Below are positions 187 to 63,695 of a DNA stretch of 64,000 bases, in pieces. The stretch is from the NCBI GenBank assembly GCA_009784025.1, contig WQVK01000006.1, forward strand, positions 1-64,000, read 5' to 3'. Under the pieces are notes generated by a model. The model saw only the letters and a list, made by a program, of their open reading frames with translations. It was not told the origin of the DNA and searched no databases. How positions within the stretch are numbered: the stretch's first letter is position 1; each line of letters begins with the position of its first letter. A program made the translations under genes and the position numbers. This DNA comes from Defluviitaleaceae bacterium. Its GTDB lineage: Bacteria > Bacillota > Clostridia > Lachnospirales > WQUN01.

Positions 187-260
187 AATAGACTTCTTTC
201 GAAATCATGCTTTTAATTTTGCAAAAGTTACATTTTCAATCTAGTGATTTCAAAAGAACC
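187..260. repeat. Family A structured repeat, degenerate copy
   Basis: Matches the family A layout: AGACTTCTTTCGAAAT start, the conserved linker GTTACATTTTCAATCT, then a second arm ending in AAAAGAACCC. It lies directly upstream of the next gene's ribosome binding site. It is more diverged than the copies at 9139, 35342 or 63593. Confidence 0.65.
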
Positions 261-298
261 CATATAAAGAAATTTCTATAACCCCCCAGGAGGCAACC

Positions 299-3201: not shown

Positions 3202-4434
3202 TTACAGCCCAACCCCAGGGTTGCGGCCCACGAATTCTTCTAGGCTTAGTATGTTGTTTTCGTGCATGTACATAGCGATTTCTTTGCCTACGTAGGTGAT
3301 ATGCCAGGGTTCGTAAATGTAGCCTGTTATGTGGGTGGTTTCGGCACGGTAGCGTATGATAAAGCCGTGATAATGGGCGTTTTCTGCCACCCAGAGGCCG
3401 GTGGCGGATGGGCCTCTGGCGTCTAGTAGGCCACCTGGGCCCCACAGGTCTATCGCGCGGCCGGTTTGGTGCTCACTATGGTAGGGACGGGCTACTGCAC
3501 CATCGCGGAAGTTTTGCCTTGCCCATAGCTCTTGCTGGCGGGCGGCCGCGCGGAAGGCAGAAGTTGCGGATATTGGGAATCCAGCCGCATAACCAGCCGC
3601 CCGGAACTGACGGAACGCATACACCGTTTCTGGCGTGGCACGCAAGAAGCAATCAGCATTGTTTACCGGCACAAGCTCTGGCGGGTTAAAGCCATCAGGT
3701 AGCCTAAATTGCGGGCTTACCAGCAGCGGGTTTTCGTCATGGTTTACAGTTATATGTGAGTAGAATGGCAAATGCAGGTTAACATTCACCATCCACACGA
3801 TGGTTTCGTAGCTTAAATCTGGGCGCTGGTTGCTAAAATGCCTATATAGATGCACCTTTTCGGGTATGGAGAACGGAAACTCACTGAAGGAAACCGCAAG
3901 CGGCGGCATTGCTATCGCGATAGGTGTGGGCTGTGGCGCCGGAGATGGCGTAGGAAGCGGCGTTGACCGGGGCGAGAATGGTACAAGAAAGTCTATGGAA
4001 ATTGGCGTCGGGTTAATGGCTGGTGCTGGTGTGGGTGTTGGGCTGGGGGTGGGAGATGGAAGCGGCGTGGGTGTTGGGGGCAACGGGGCAATAGGCGATG
4101 GTAGCGGCGGAGGGGTGGGTGTTGGGGGTAGTGCGGGTGTTGGCGTTGGCAATGGCGTAGGCGTTAATGCAGGCGTAGGAGACGGCGCAGGTTGCACGAT
4201 AGTTGGCTCAACCTGCTCTGCAACCGTTGGCCGGGCTGCTTGGCCATGCCCAAACACGGGCGTGGTAATATTCGTAAGTAGGCCGTCGCCGGCCGTGACT
4301 CTATCTTCAACTATCAGCAAAACGGCCAAACTAGCGCTAACGGCCGCAATGGACACAAAAACCACTGTAACAACCAAAGTAAATATATTTTTTTTCTTGC
4401 GTTTAGCCTTTTTCAAAAATATCACCTTGTCCAT
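3202..4434 (-). CDS. Membrane-anchored VanY-type D-alanyl-D-alanine carboxypeptidase
   Basis: 410 residues. There is a short basic cytoplasmic tail, one transmembrane helix (about residues 18-42), then a proline/threonine-rich stalk (about residues 80-175, with many PTP and PSP repeats). A peptidase M15B domain fills the rest. The zinc and catalytic signature is complete: S-E-H-Q-T-G-R-A-I-D at 320-329 (His322, Asp329) and E-P-W-H at 375-378 (Glu375, His378). It should trim the terminal D-Ala of peptidoglycan stem peptides outside the membrane; the stalk would let it reach across the wall. The ATG follows GAAAGAAG, which is the end of a family A repeat, so the repeat supplies its ribosome binding site. 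No vancomycin-resistance genes are nearby, so a housekeeping or sporulation wall role is likelier. Confidence 0.85.
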   Translation of the reverse strand: MDKVIFLKKAKRKKKNIFTLVVTVVFVSIAAVSASLAVLLIVEDRVTAGDGLLTNITTPVFGHGQAARPTVAEQVEPTIVQPAPSPTPALTPTPLPTPTPALPPTPTPPPLPSPIAPLPPTPTPLPSPTPSPTPTPAPAINPTPISIDFLVPFSPRSTPLPTPSPAPQPTPIAIAMPPLAVSFSEFPFSIPEKVHLYRHFSNQRPDLSYETIVWMVNVNLHLPFYSHITVNHDENPLLVSPQFRLPDGFNPPELVPVNNADCFLRATPETVYAFRQFRAAGYAAGFPISATSAFRAAARQQELWARQNFRDGAVARPYHSEHQTGRAIDLWGPGGLLDARGPSATGLWVAENAHYHGFIIRYRAETTHITGYIYEPWHITYVGKEIAMYMHENNILSLEEFVGRNPGVGL

Positions 4435-4538
4435 TAGACTTCTTTCGCAATAGAGTTCTTCTGAAATTGCGAAAAGCGCAATTTTGGAAGAACTCTAATC
4501 ATATTTTCCGATTCCGAAAAAGTTGCTTTTTGTTATAA
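4434..4538. repeat. Family A structured repeat
   Basis: Copy abutting the start codon of the carboxypeptidase gene. It has TTCTTCTGAAATTGC / GCAATTTTGGAAGAA arms and the shared AGACTTCTTTCG end. On the minus strand its AAAGAAGTCT end lies at ribosome-binding-site distance from the ATG. Confidence 0.7.
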
Positions 4539-5385: not shown

Positions 5386-5670
5386 GTTGCACCTCCTTTT
5401 ATTTTAAACCGTCAGGCTTCACTGGCCACATTTTTGTCGCTTTTCATGCCGTGCTACCCGATTTTTTTCGGTTATATTCGAAAAAACTTGCAAAGAACTC
5501 TAATATAGATTTTTGTGAAAAAAACCGCTTGTTTGGCGGGTTATCTCCGCTTTTTCCTTTAAGTAGAAAATTGACAAAAAAATTTAATTTTTTTCAAAAA
5601 CATAAAAGTCGCTTGTTTAGCGGGTTCTAGCGTTTTGGAACGGCAAAAAAGCCGTTTTTTGATGGAAAAG
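5386..5670. other. Non-coding gap between spoIIGA and sigE
   Basis: AT-rich and without plausible ORFs. It contains two near-identical segments CGCTTGTTTGGCGGGTT (about 5526) and CGCTTGTTTAGCGGGTT (about 5610), and a small GGC-AAAAAA-GCC hairpin near 5644. I could not identify a confident promoter for sigE alone. Confidence 0.5.
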
Positions 5671-9038: not shown

Positions 9039-9308
9039 ATGTTAAAACCGTCAGAGGCTTCGCCTCCGACACCTCCAAAAACTTTTTTGGAAAAAGTTTT
9101 ATCAAAAAACCTAACATTGGGATTATATAAATATCTCAATAGACTTCTTCCGAAATTCCCGCAGGGGATTTTGGAAAAGTTACATTTTCAATCTTTTGCT
9201 TCTTCTAAAATTGCGTTTTTTGCAATTTCAGAAGAACTCTAATGTTAAAGTTTTTGCCCTGCTTTTTTCAAAAAGCGGGTGGGTGTGGGCGAAGCCCACG
9301 GTTTTAAA
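9039..9308. repeat. Repeat cluster B-A-B upstream of alaS
   Basis: Three elements in a row: a B copy (9039-9116, hairpins GAGGC-TTC-GCCTC and AAAACTTTTTTGGAAAAAGTTTT), a full A copy (9139-9242) and an inverted B copy (9242-9308, GTGGGC-GAA-GCCCAC). No T-box leader features were found here, and nothing else fills the gap. Confidence 0.85.
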
Positions 9309-27583: not shown

Positions 27584-27699
27584 TATAGTGAAATAAATGA
27601 GAAACGGTCTCGCCAGAGCGGCACCTGAAATGCCGAGATAAGGCGTTTCAGGCGTTTTTGCCGCGACAGGCGATACCGATTTCGAATTAGTTTACTATA
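27584..27699. repeat. Family C element, inverted copy
   Basis: TATAGTGAAATAA at the left and TTAGTTTACTATA at the right. The inner stem is CCTGAAATGCC / GGCGTTTCAGG with a GAGATAA loop. It ends just upstream of the xylanase ribosome binding site, so any promoter for that gene lies in or against this element. Confidence 0.8.
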
Positions 27700-27730
27700 T
27701 TATTAGATTAGAAAATTAGGAGGTTTCTAA

Positions 27731-33924: not shown

Positions 33925-34050
33925 TGTGATTTCGAAAGAACTCTAATAGACTTCTTTCGAAATTGTGCTTTTCAATTTCGAAAAAGTTTCATTTTTAATC
34001 TTGTACTTCTTCTGAAATCACGTTTTTTGTGATTTCAGAAGAACTCCAAT
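33925..34050. repeat. Family A structured repeat with extra half
   Basis: Full copy from about 33944. Stems are TCGAAATT / AATTTCGA and TTCTGAAATCAC / GTGATTTCAGAA, preceded by a stray right-end fragment (GTGATTTCGAAAGAACTCTA). The second stem differs from other copies at both sides (CAC/GTG instead of TGC/GCA). Confidence 0.85.
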
Positions 34051-35219: not shown

Positions 35220-35446
35220 AGAACAAGACCGCCAGAGGCTCTGCCCAAGCACCTCCACTTTTTCATAATGTTCGCGTCGCGAACCAGGCATCTTCCAGGT
35301 TCAATTTAGAAAAAGCGAGATAAAAACTCTGAAATTTGGGGAATAGACTTCTTCCGAAATTACGTTTATTAATTTCGGAAGAGTTACATTTTCAATCTTT
35401 TGCTTCTTTTGAAATTGCGTCTTTTGCAATTTCAGAAGAACTCTAA
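35220..35446. repeat. Family B and A repeats between the two permease genes
   Basis: A B copy with insert (about 35220-35336; GACCGCCAGAGG start, TCGCGTCGCGAACC insert) is followed by a complete A copy (35342-35446) with stems CCGAAATTA / TAATTTCGG and TTTGAAATTGC / GCAATTTCAGA. They occupy the whole intergenic space inside an apparent operon. Confidence 0.85.
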
Positions 35447-37432: not shown

Positions 37433-37772
37433 TAAAACCGTGGGCTTTGCCCACACCCACCCTCTTTTTGAAAAAAGAGGGGCAAAAACTTTAACTTTTA
37501 TTTGCAATGCCTTTAGGCAAAAGCTGCTGCCGTAAGAAAGTAAACCGCTTTCTTATGGCAGCAGCTTTTGCCTAAGCTTCGCTTAATGGAAAAATTCAGA
37601 TGTTAAAATTTTTTGCCAAGTTTTTTTAAAAAAAGCGGTGGGTATGGGCAAAGCCCATAGTTTTATTCTTTAGAGTTCTTCTGAAATTGCAAAAAACGCA
37701 ATTTCAAAAGAAGCAAAAGATTGAAAATGTAACTTTTCCGAAATTAAAAAACGTAATTTCGGAAGAAGTCTT
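37433..37772. repeat. Composite repeat block: B, long hairpin, inverted B, inverted A
   Basis: A B copy (37433-37495) and an inverted B copy (37599-37665) flank a 63-nt hairpin (37513-37575). The hairpin has 28-bp arms beginning TTAGGCAAAAGCTGCTGCCG and a 7-nt loop. An inverted A copy follows (37671-37772). The block fills the space before the 52-residue gene and contains no ORF of interest. Confidence 0.85.
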
Positions 37773-46032: not shown

Positions 46033-46079
46033 CTCCAGTTTTTATGTAACGAAGTACAACATTTATACGTGCTTTTGTA

Positions 46080-46191
46080 TAAACAATTCGAAATCGGTCT
46101 CGTCTGTCGCGGCAAAAACGCCTGAAACGCCTTGTCACGGCGTTTTAAGTGCCGCTTGGGCGAAATCGTTTCCCCATTTATTTCACTATAC
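46080..46191. repeat. Family C element downstream of ylbJ
   Basis: Inner stem CTGAAACGCC / GGCGTTTTAAG with G-U pairs, loop TTGTCAC, and the right end TTATTTCACTATA two bases from the ylbJ stop codon. Confidence 0.82.
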
Positions 46192-52178: not shown

Positions 52179-52333
52179 TAGACTTCTTCCGAAATTACAT
52201 TTTTTAATTTCGGAAAAGTTACATTTTCAATCTTTTGCTTCTTTTCATAAGGTTCGCTTCGCGAACTCGGCATTTCATGCCGCCCGATTTTTTTCGGGTT
52301 GCTTTTGGAAAAAAAGAAACAAAAAACTTTAAT
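52179..52333. repeat. Chimeric A/B repeat after malQ
   Basis: The left half of a family A copy (CCGAAATTA / TAATTTCGG stem plus linker, to about 52245) runs directly into the insert-bearing half of a family B copy (AAGGTTCGCTTCGCGAAC onward, ending AAAAAACTTTAAT). Confidence 0.8.
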
Positions 52334-54748: not shown

Positions 54749-55052
54749 TAAAACCGTTAGAGGTGTCGGAGGCAAAGCCATTGACGGTCTTTATGCTAAT
54801 TTAAATAGACTTCTTCCGAAATTGTGGTTTTTGTAATTTCAGAAGAACTCTAAGTAAAATCGCCTGTTTCGGCGTTTTATGGTGCCGTTCTAATATAATC
54901 CCCAGCCACTGGAAAAGTATGCATAAATCCCAGGCCTTGGCATAAAATTTATTAGAGTTCTTCTGAAATTACAAAAAACGCAATTTCAGAGGAAGCAAAA
55001 GATTGAAAATGTAACTTTTCCGAAACCCCACGGGAATTTCGGAAGAAGTCTA
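54749..55052. repeat. Repeat cluster before the spoIVFA-like gene
   Basis: A partial B copy (54749-54795), a shortened A copy with the middle deleted (54804-54853), a small stem resembling the family C core (TCGCC-TGTTTC-GGCGTTTTA, about 54859-54880), and a complete inverted A copy (54953-55052). The segment 54881-54950 contains GCATAAAT, which could be a sigma-E -10, but no clear -35. Confidence 0.75.
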
Positions 55053-60933: not shown

Positions 60934-60970
60934 CAAATGAACTAATTACAGATTGTAATTAGTTCATTTG
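60934..60970. repeat. Family F palindrome, copy 2
   Basis: The 25-bp core of the copy at 150-174, here extended to 16-bp arms (CAAATGAACTAATTAC and complement). Confidence 0.85.
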
Positions 60971-61067: not shown

Positions 61068-61182
61068 TATAGTGAAATAATTCGAAAACGGTCTCGTCTG
61101 TCGCGGCAAAAACGCCTTAAGCGCCTCGTCTCGGCGTTTAAGGTGCCGCTCGGACGAGACCGTTTCTCATTTATTTCATATA
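61068..61182. repeat. Family C element, best preserved copy
   Basis: Arms CGGTCTCGTC / GACGAGACCG and GTGAAATAA / TTATTTCA are perfect, and the inner stem is CCTTAAGCGCC / GGCGTTTAAGG (one G-U). The outer end is TATA on both sides. Confidence 0.88.
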
Positions 61183-63592: not shown

Positions 63593-63695
63593 TAGACTTC
63601 TTGCGAAATTCTCGTAGGGGGTTTCGCAAGAAGTTACATTTTCAATCTTTTGCTTCTTCTGAAATTGCGTTTTTTGCAATTTCAGAAGAACCCTA
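63593..63695. repeat. Family A structured repeat, complete
   Basis: First stem TTCTTGCGAAA / TTTCGCAAGAA, with G-C replacing the C-G of other copies at that pair. Conserved linker, second stem TTCTGAAATTGC / GCAATTTCAGAA. Confidence 0.88.

Follow-up and report, generated by a model that had tools for sequence, protein, structure and literature searches.

The repeat family studied here, family A, is very probably a gene-less MITE that is moved in trans by an IS5-family (ISL2-type) DDE transposase. It has terminal inverted repeats at fixed ends, a target duplication, a length of 100 nt without a gene and a dispersed distribution over the host genome, and its ends are common with the autonomous-type elements L144, L158, L160 and L161. 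What appeared to be an RNA family with covarying stems is thereby reread as a mobile element, and we regard family A as a MITE family that is new but of a known kind, and its build from two hairpins as unusual.

The window, the whole stretch of 64,000 nucleotides analyzed here, holds the named copy at 35342-35446, where it was confirmed. The full two-hairpin copy occupies 35345-35444 (+), with the target duplication AAT before it and a decayed AAC after it. Folding and pair counts place hairpin 1, in which a loop separates the left terminal repeat AGACTTCTTCCGAAATT from its inverted copy, at 35345-35385 (+), and hairpin 2, in which a loop separates the inner copy from the right terminal repeat, at 35404-35440 (+). 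The mobile unit of the family is the 100 nt from AGAC to CTCT, and the letters outside it are duplicated target. Each hairpin is a terminal repeat joined to its own inverted copy, and the element as a whole reads repeat and inverted repeat, linker, repeat and inverted repeat. The left and right terminal repeats match each other imperfectly (AGACTTCTTYCGAAAT and AGAGTTCTTCTGAAAT). The two hairpins fold strongly (z of -8.9 against dinucleotide shuffles), and the 20-nt linker occurs seven times in the window at three or fewer mismatches, where 0.01 occurrences are expected.

The initial annotation had counted ten two-hairpin copies in the window. The repeat does stand at all ten places, but only six hold a full copy: besides the named one these are 9141-9240 (+, AAT/AAT), 33948-34047 (+, AAT/AAT, with a remnant of another right end at 33929-33945), 37672-37771 (-, AAA/AAA), 54954-55051 (-, AAT/AAT) and 63594-63694 (+, ACT/ACT, with GCGAAA in hairpin 1 as in the IS5-family relatives). 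The copy at 52180-52244 (+) is cut off, with hairpin 1 and the linker present, another hairpin-rich repeat inside hairpin 2 and no right end found. The copy at 190-262 (+) is without most of hairpin 2, and the places at 4452-4496 (+, own AAT/AAT duplication) and 54807-54851 (+, AAT/AAG) are solo 45-nt hairpins. Since the first of these solos adjoins a short end remnant (4436-4451) and has its own AAT duplication, the descriptions of a copy fused to a B element and of an internal deletion do not fit what stands at 4434. The suggestion that the halves can recombine is not supported, as the single-hairpin and composite forms are accounted for by target-duplicating transposition and by repeats inserting into one another. 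Other palindromic sequences also occur in the window. Hairpin-rich repeats of the form AAAGTTTTTGCCCCGCTTTTT...GCGGG...GGCGAAGCCTCTGACGGTTTTA adjoin many genes (6692, 9241, 37452, 38303, 56791, 56941 and others), and paired-palindrome repeats TATGGTACCRTAYGGTACCAT lie at 5669, 38121, 38153, 44803 and 52483. A 27-nt perfect palindrome, CAGTTGGTCGGAWWWTCCGACCAACTG, occurs in four copies (29004, 33822, 55585 and 63901) with a chance expectation of none and is perhaps the solo hairpin of another element.

The dispersed family with a constant two-hairpin layout that had been described from the window is borne out across the host assembly (2,140,985 bases in 67 contigs, 82% complete). The covariance model search proposed at that stage, with a model built from 14 copies and a match threshold of E <= 0.01, gave at least 135 matches across the host's 2.14 Mb, a lower bound as 150 of 2079 candidates were scored. 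The linker at two or fewer mismatches occurs 111 times in the host genome and its reversed control not at all. Among 96 related genomes, the host's own included, the same model matches three, namely the host, the related Defluviitaleaceae MAG G025 (26 matches) and G026 (two matches), in a scan that scored 42 candidates per genome and can miss low-copy relatives. The hairpin-2 pattern was found in 15 stretches of GTDB contigs, all from two Defluviitaleaceae MAGs, Lab288P1bin39 and Emb289P1bin119, which correspond to G025 and G026, and had no match in IMG/VR. The isolate names, together with a MAG study of termite guts (PMC7024585), hint at termite gut as a possible source. The linker pattern was found in none of 84,980 GTDB genomes and not in IMG/VR, collections from which records of the own genome may be absent. 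A distant blastn search against plasmids and phages gave no match to family A, and the portions of the open-access literature that our search returned held no recognized description of the element.

The target duplication points to transposition. In 117 of 161 extracted places both ends lie within three mismatches of 16, and the 44 places without two recognizable ends were left out of the duplication count. An exact 3-bp duplication flanks 73 of 93 host copies, with 35 the largest value in 10,000 shuffles, and 22 of 24 copies in G025 (largest of 10,000 shuffles, 19); the other 20 host copies have no exact duplication. The ANT form makes up 69 of the 73 exact duplications in the host and all 22 in G025, where AxT before the element is followed by an identical AxT after it. 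An interpretation of the duplication as TA or as 1 bp was abandoned once ANT became apparent beside the G025 copies. The two genes that flank one G025 copy have orthologs in G011 that stand closer together, with no element between them, in a gap too diverged for base precision.

Empty and filled sites can be compared in repeat B, a palindromic sequence of ~117 nt with ends TATAGTGAAATA...TATTTCACTATA that itself resembles a MITE and into which family A has inserted repeatedly. Repeat B lies in the window at 1674-1784, 27584-27703, 46073-46190 and 61068-61178; its end is intact at four window places and interrupted by family A elsewhere. Empty sites read TTTC-ACT-ATA and filled sites TTTC-ACT-[A]-ACT-ATA, with the element in either orientation, such that the two differ by the element and a second ACT. 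The filled-site pattern occurs at 18 host places and one place in G025. B sequence is recognized beyond the site at 13 of the 18 (nine and four by orientation), and the remaining five matches may be chance or decayed B.

IS5-family insertion sequences in other bacteria have AGACCTCTTGCGAAA-like ends and an ANT duplication in common with family A, and these common features make an ISL2-type transposase the best candidate for its mover. PF01609 loci were sought in seven genomes carrying the end motif. The insertion sequence L144, in genome G260, is 883 bp long, has AGACCTCTTGCGAAAT at either end and is flanked by a duplicated ATT. It codes for an IS5-family transposase split by a stop into a helix-turn-helix part and a DDE part; both match the IS5 family transposase model NF033581, and neither reaches the whole-protein cut-off. 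The L144 ends do not fold into hairpins; thus the presumed parent does not explain the hairpin build, and the transposase family seems not to need hairpins. Six plasmid relatives were examined. Such ends with a 3-bp ANT duplication were found in those from L. helveticus (857 bp), Pseudanabaena (946 bp) and Acinetobacter (870 bp), and the end scan found no ends in the other three, the two most similar to L144 among them. By locus, L144, L158, L160 and L161 have the ends and the ANT duplication in common with family A, and L156, L157 and L159 gave no such ends in the end scan. Reading by eye added nine loci from six other genomes (G098, G028, G029, G248, G271 and G260) that have these ends and ANT duplications around different interiors, and showed no clear partner end at nine further non-host loci. 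The ISL2 group has an ANT target and a length of 858 bp, which the target and length of these relatives presumably fit. PMC3196728 tabulates ISL2-group elements of 914-991 bp.

An NF033581 search of the incomplete assemblies of the host, G025 and G026 gave no match, so the mover of family A is one that we infer. An autonomous partner was found in none of the three genomes, and a MITE does not need one in its own genome. An end-pattern search of G025 and G026 showed no full-length insertion sequence with matching ends; the end pairs in G025 were of the ~102-nt kind, together with two fragments of left ends (C1:293753-294223) and, on C5, a pair that faces outward. A scan of other transposase loci, which required ends starting with AGA, found no AGA-type ends with an ANT duplication except at L144 and the overlapping L268. 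PF01609 was found in the host only with other ends (L096 and L097). Two host contigs have a transposase fragment at their very start (L097 at G000:C36:2-118 and L034 at G000:C48:2-64), which suggests that repeated insertion sequence copies broke the assembly. The missing transposase could sit in such gaps.

The stem covariation is real. In an alignment of 101 distinct copies drawn from three genomes, both sides are changed in 12 of the 32 stem pairs, in 204 cells, compared with a shuffle mean of 62; none of 500 shuffles reaches 204, and slid controls give at most 35 cells. The covarying stems claimed from the window thus hold in the larger alignment, where the differences stay paired. For the most part the both-sided changes tell subfamilies apart, namely three in the host plus G025, in a grouping of the host copies that is our own and that leaves out one host row (L177) and two G026 rows. 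Relative to the subfamily consensus, one-sided changes comprise 47 G-U, 53 A-C and 23 other changes (G-U against A-C, p = 0.62). A further 25 both-sided changes stay paired, and 12 of these fall at two pairs on the loop side in a single group, so that this group seems to be mixed itself. Stems mutate at 2.9% and the linker at 3.8% (p = 0.08). Within subfamilies the changes are near the expectation for unconstrained copies on either strand and are compatible with weak constraint. Gene context, from simple open frames, places 17 of 134 host copies inside a longer predicted reading frame. The neighbors of the 119 copies with both called are divergent in 31 cases, tandem in 77 and convergent in 11, which agrees with the earlier statement that copies lie mostly upstream of genes (108 of 119 are upstream of at least one neighbor), as a copy in any non-convergent gap does. 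Beside tandem genes, 45 copies have the same orientation and 32 the opposite (p = 0.17).

A structured RNA family, in which each copy either is a small RNA or acts in mRNA as a leader, terminator or processing site and the stems are under selection, would account for the strong folds, for compensatory changes across subfamilies and genera, for the upstream positions and for the slightly lower change in stems than in the linker. Pairing kept up on one strand in single copies would show as more G-U than A-C among the one-sided changes, and no such excess is seen; drift within subfamilies without strand bias argues against an RNA role for each copy, and so does the lack of a significant orientation preference. 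The RNA role implied by the initial annotation is therefore not supported, the target duplications show that each copy arrived by transposition, and an Rfam search of the window matched only a tRNA. We consider this reading very unlikely. Stem covariation is instead a property of transposing lineages, and it could come from selection on DNA hairpin ends, from a second transposase site or from palindrome correction; it does not have the look of a host RNA function exerted by every copy. Covariation alone is no proof of RNA function, since a palindromic MITE can pass its tests through subfamily history, and weighing G-U against A-C changes in dispersed copies separates RNA from mobile-element readings at little cost.

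Two further readings accept mobility and name another mover. A MITE moved by a different transposase is conceivable in that both an IS630 and another IS5-family element are present in the host. The ends of neither match family A, being TCAACTTATTACAG for IS630 and CCATCCTCAAAAA for the other IS5-family element (L096 and L097), and both candidates were rejected as movers. IS630/Tc1-mariner MITEs have a TA duplication and IS630 ends, whereas the family A duplication is 3 bp and mostly ANT, and four insertion sequences have both the ends and the duplication in common with family A; such a mover is at best a slim prospect. Least probable of all, and barely credible to us, is a REP/REPIN-like element with a Y1 (REP-associated) transposase as its mover. 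High copy number, hairpins and the coexistence of single and double forms would suit it, but no PF01797 match over the cut-off was found in the host, the one genome searched, and family A has a target duplication, which REPs are not known to have. The lone weak PF01797 match in the host (E of 0.5) falls in an open frame read as an acetyltransferase and was set aside.

The forms of different size bear on how an ISL2-moved MITE could have acquired its double-hairpin build. Nine host places have a solo 45-nt hairpin (one of 44) that belongs to no full copy, and at five of these the 3-bp duplication is exact; the solo scan gave 21 matches, and the other twelve were read as parts of full or composite copies. 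A 41-nt solo hairpin flanked by AAT/AAT is present in G271. An enlarged variant of ~159 nt with an insert in hairpin 2 was found at 27 candidate places, with the right end in 25 and an exact duplication in 16. The insert, hairpin-rich and ~57 nt long (CCCGGAAGAAACCGGGCGGCAC...GGTTCGCC), lies inside hairpin 2 of about 25 family A copies (for example G000 C5:23893-24052, G000 C9:131-290 and window 52244 onward), and the enlarged element is flanked by duplications of its own. The same is thus true of all three forms, single, double and enlarged. The solo hairpin would be the minimal mobile unit and the double form two fused solos. The window also has a palindrome, TCAACTAATTACAGATTGTAATTAGTTG, at 148-176, which resembles the left end of the host IS630 copy (TCAACTTATTACAGATTGTA, L032), with a second similar site at 60938; it is perhaps a solo hairpin of the IS630 end, parallel to the family A solos.

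Judging from the sequences compared here, we infer that an ISL2-type transposase, now absent or unassembled in the host, mobilized family A. It would have bound the outer repeats and then inserted the element at ANT sites; two neighboring solo hairpins may have been mobilized together by their outer ends, giving the two-hairpin form that was then amplified. A stronger version, which we hold to be doubtful, makes the hairpins part of the transposition mechanism: the solo 45-nt palindrome, which consists of two end repeats only, would be the smallest working DDE substrate, and the 100-nt element would be two such palindromes fused, with arms that stay complementary because self-paired ends are favored in transposition or replication. 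Nested sites and solo hairpins provide a readable record of the spread of very small palindromic elements.

In comparison with known systems, family A resembles ISL2-type IS5-family insertion sequences (NF033581) in its AGA(C/G)..TCTTGCGAAA-like ends and 3-bp ANT duplication. These insertion sequences are about 0.86-0.95 kb long with a transposase gene, whereas family A has 100 nt and no gene, and its ends fold into hairpins, unlike those of L144. REPs are not known to have a target duplication, and family A differs from REP/REPIN elements in having one and in a host without a Y1 transposase over the cut-off, although high-copy hairpins in single and double forms are common to both. According to PMC2817692, REPs reach over 100 copies and also form alternating composites. 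Family A is also like the Correia elements in being a short palindromic MITE that adjoins genes. Correia elements have a TA target, compared with a family A target of 3 bp, mostly ANT. The review PMC10969869 describes the Correia elements of Neisseria as short palindromic MITEs beside genes whose transcripts RNase III can cut. Prokaryotic MITEs, as characterized in the same review, have terminal inverted repeats, direct repeats, AT-rich intergenic sites, stem-loops and no gene (PMC10969869), and family A is like them in all of these traits. It is unlike prokaryotic MITEs in general in that each end repeat occurs twice, as a self-complementary hairpin, and in that solo hairpins exist as separate units.
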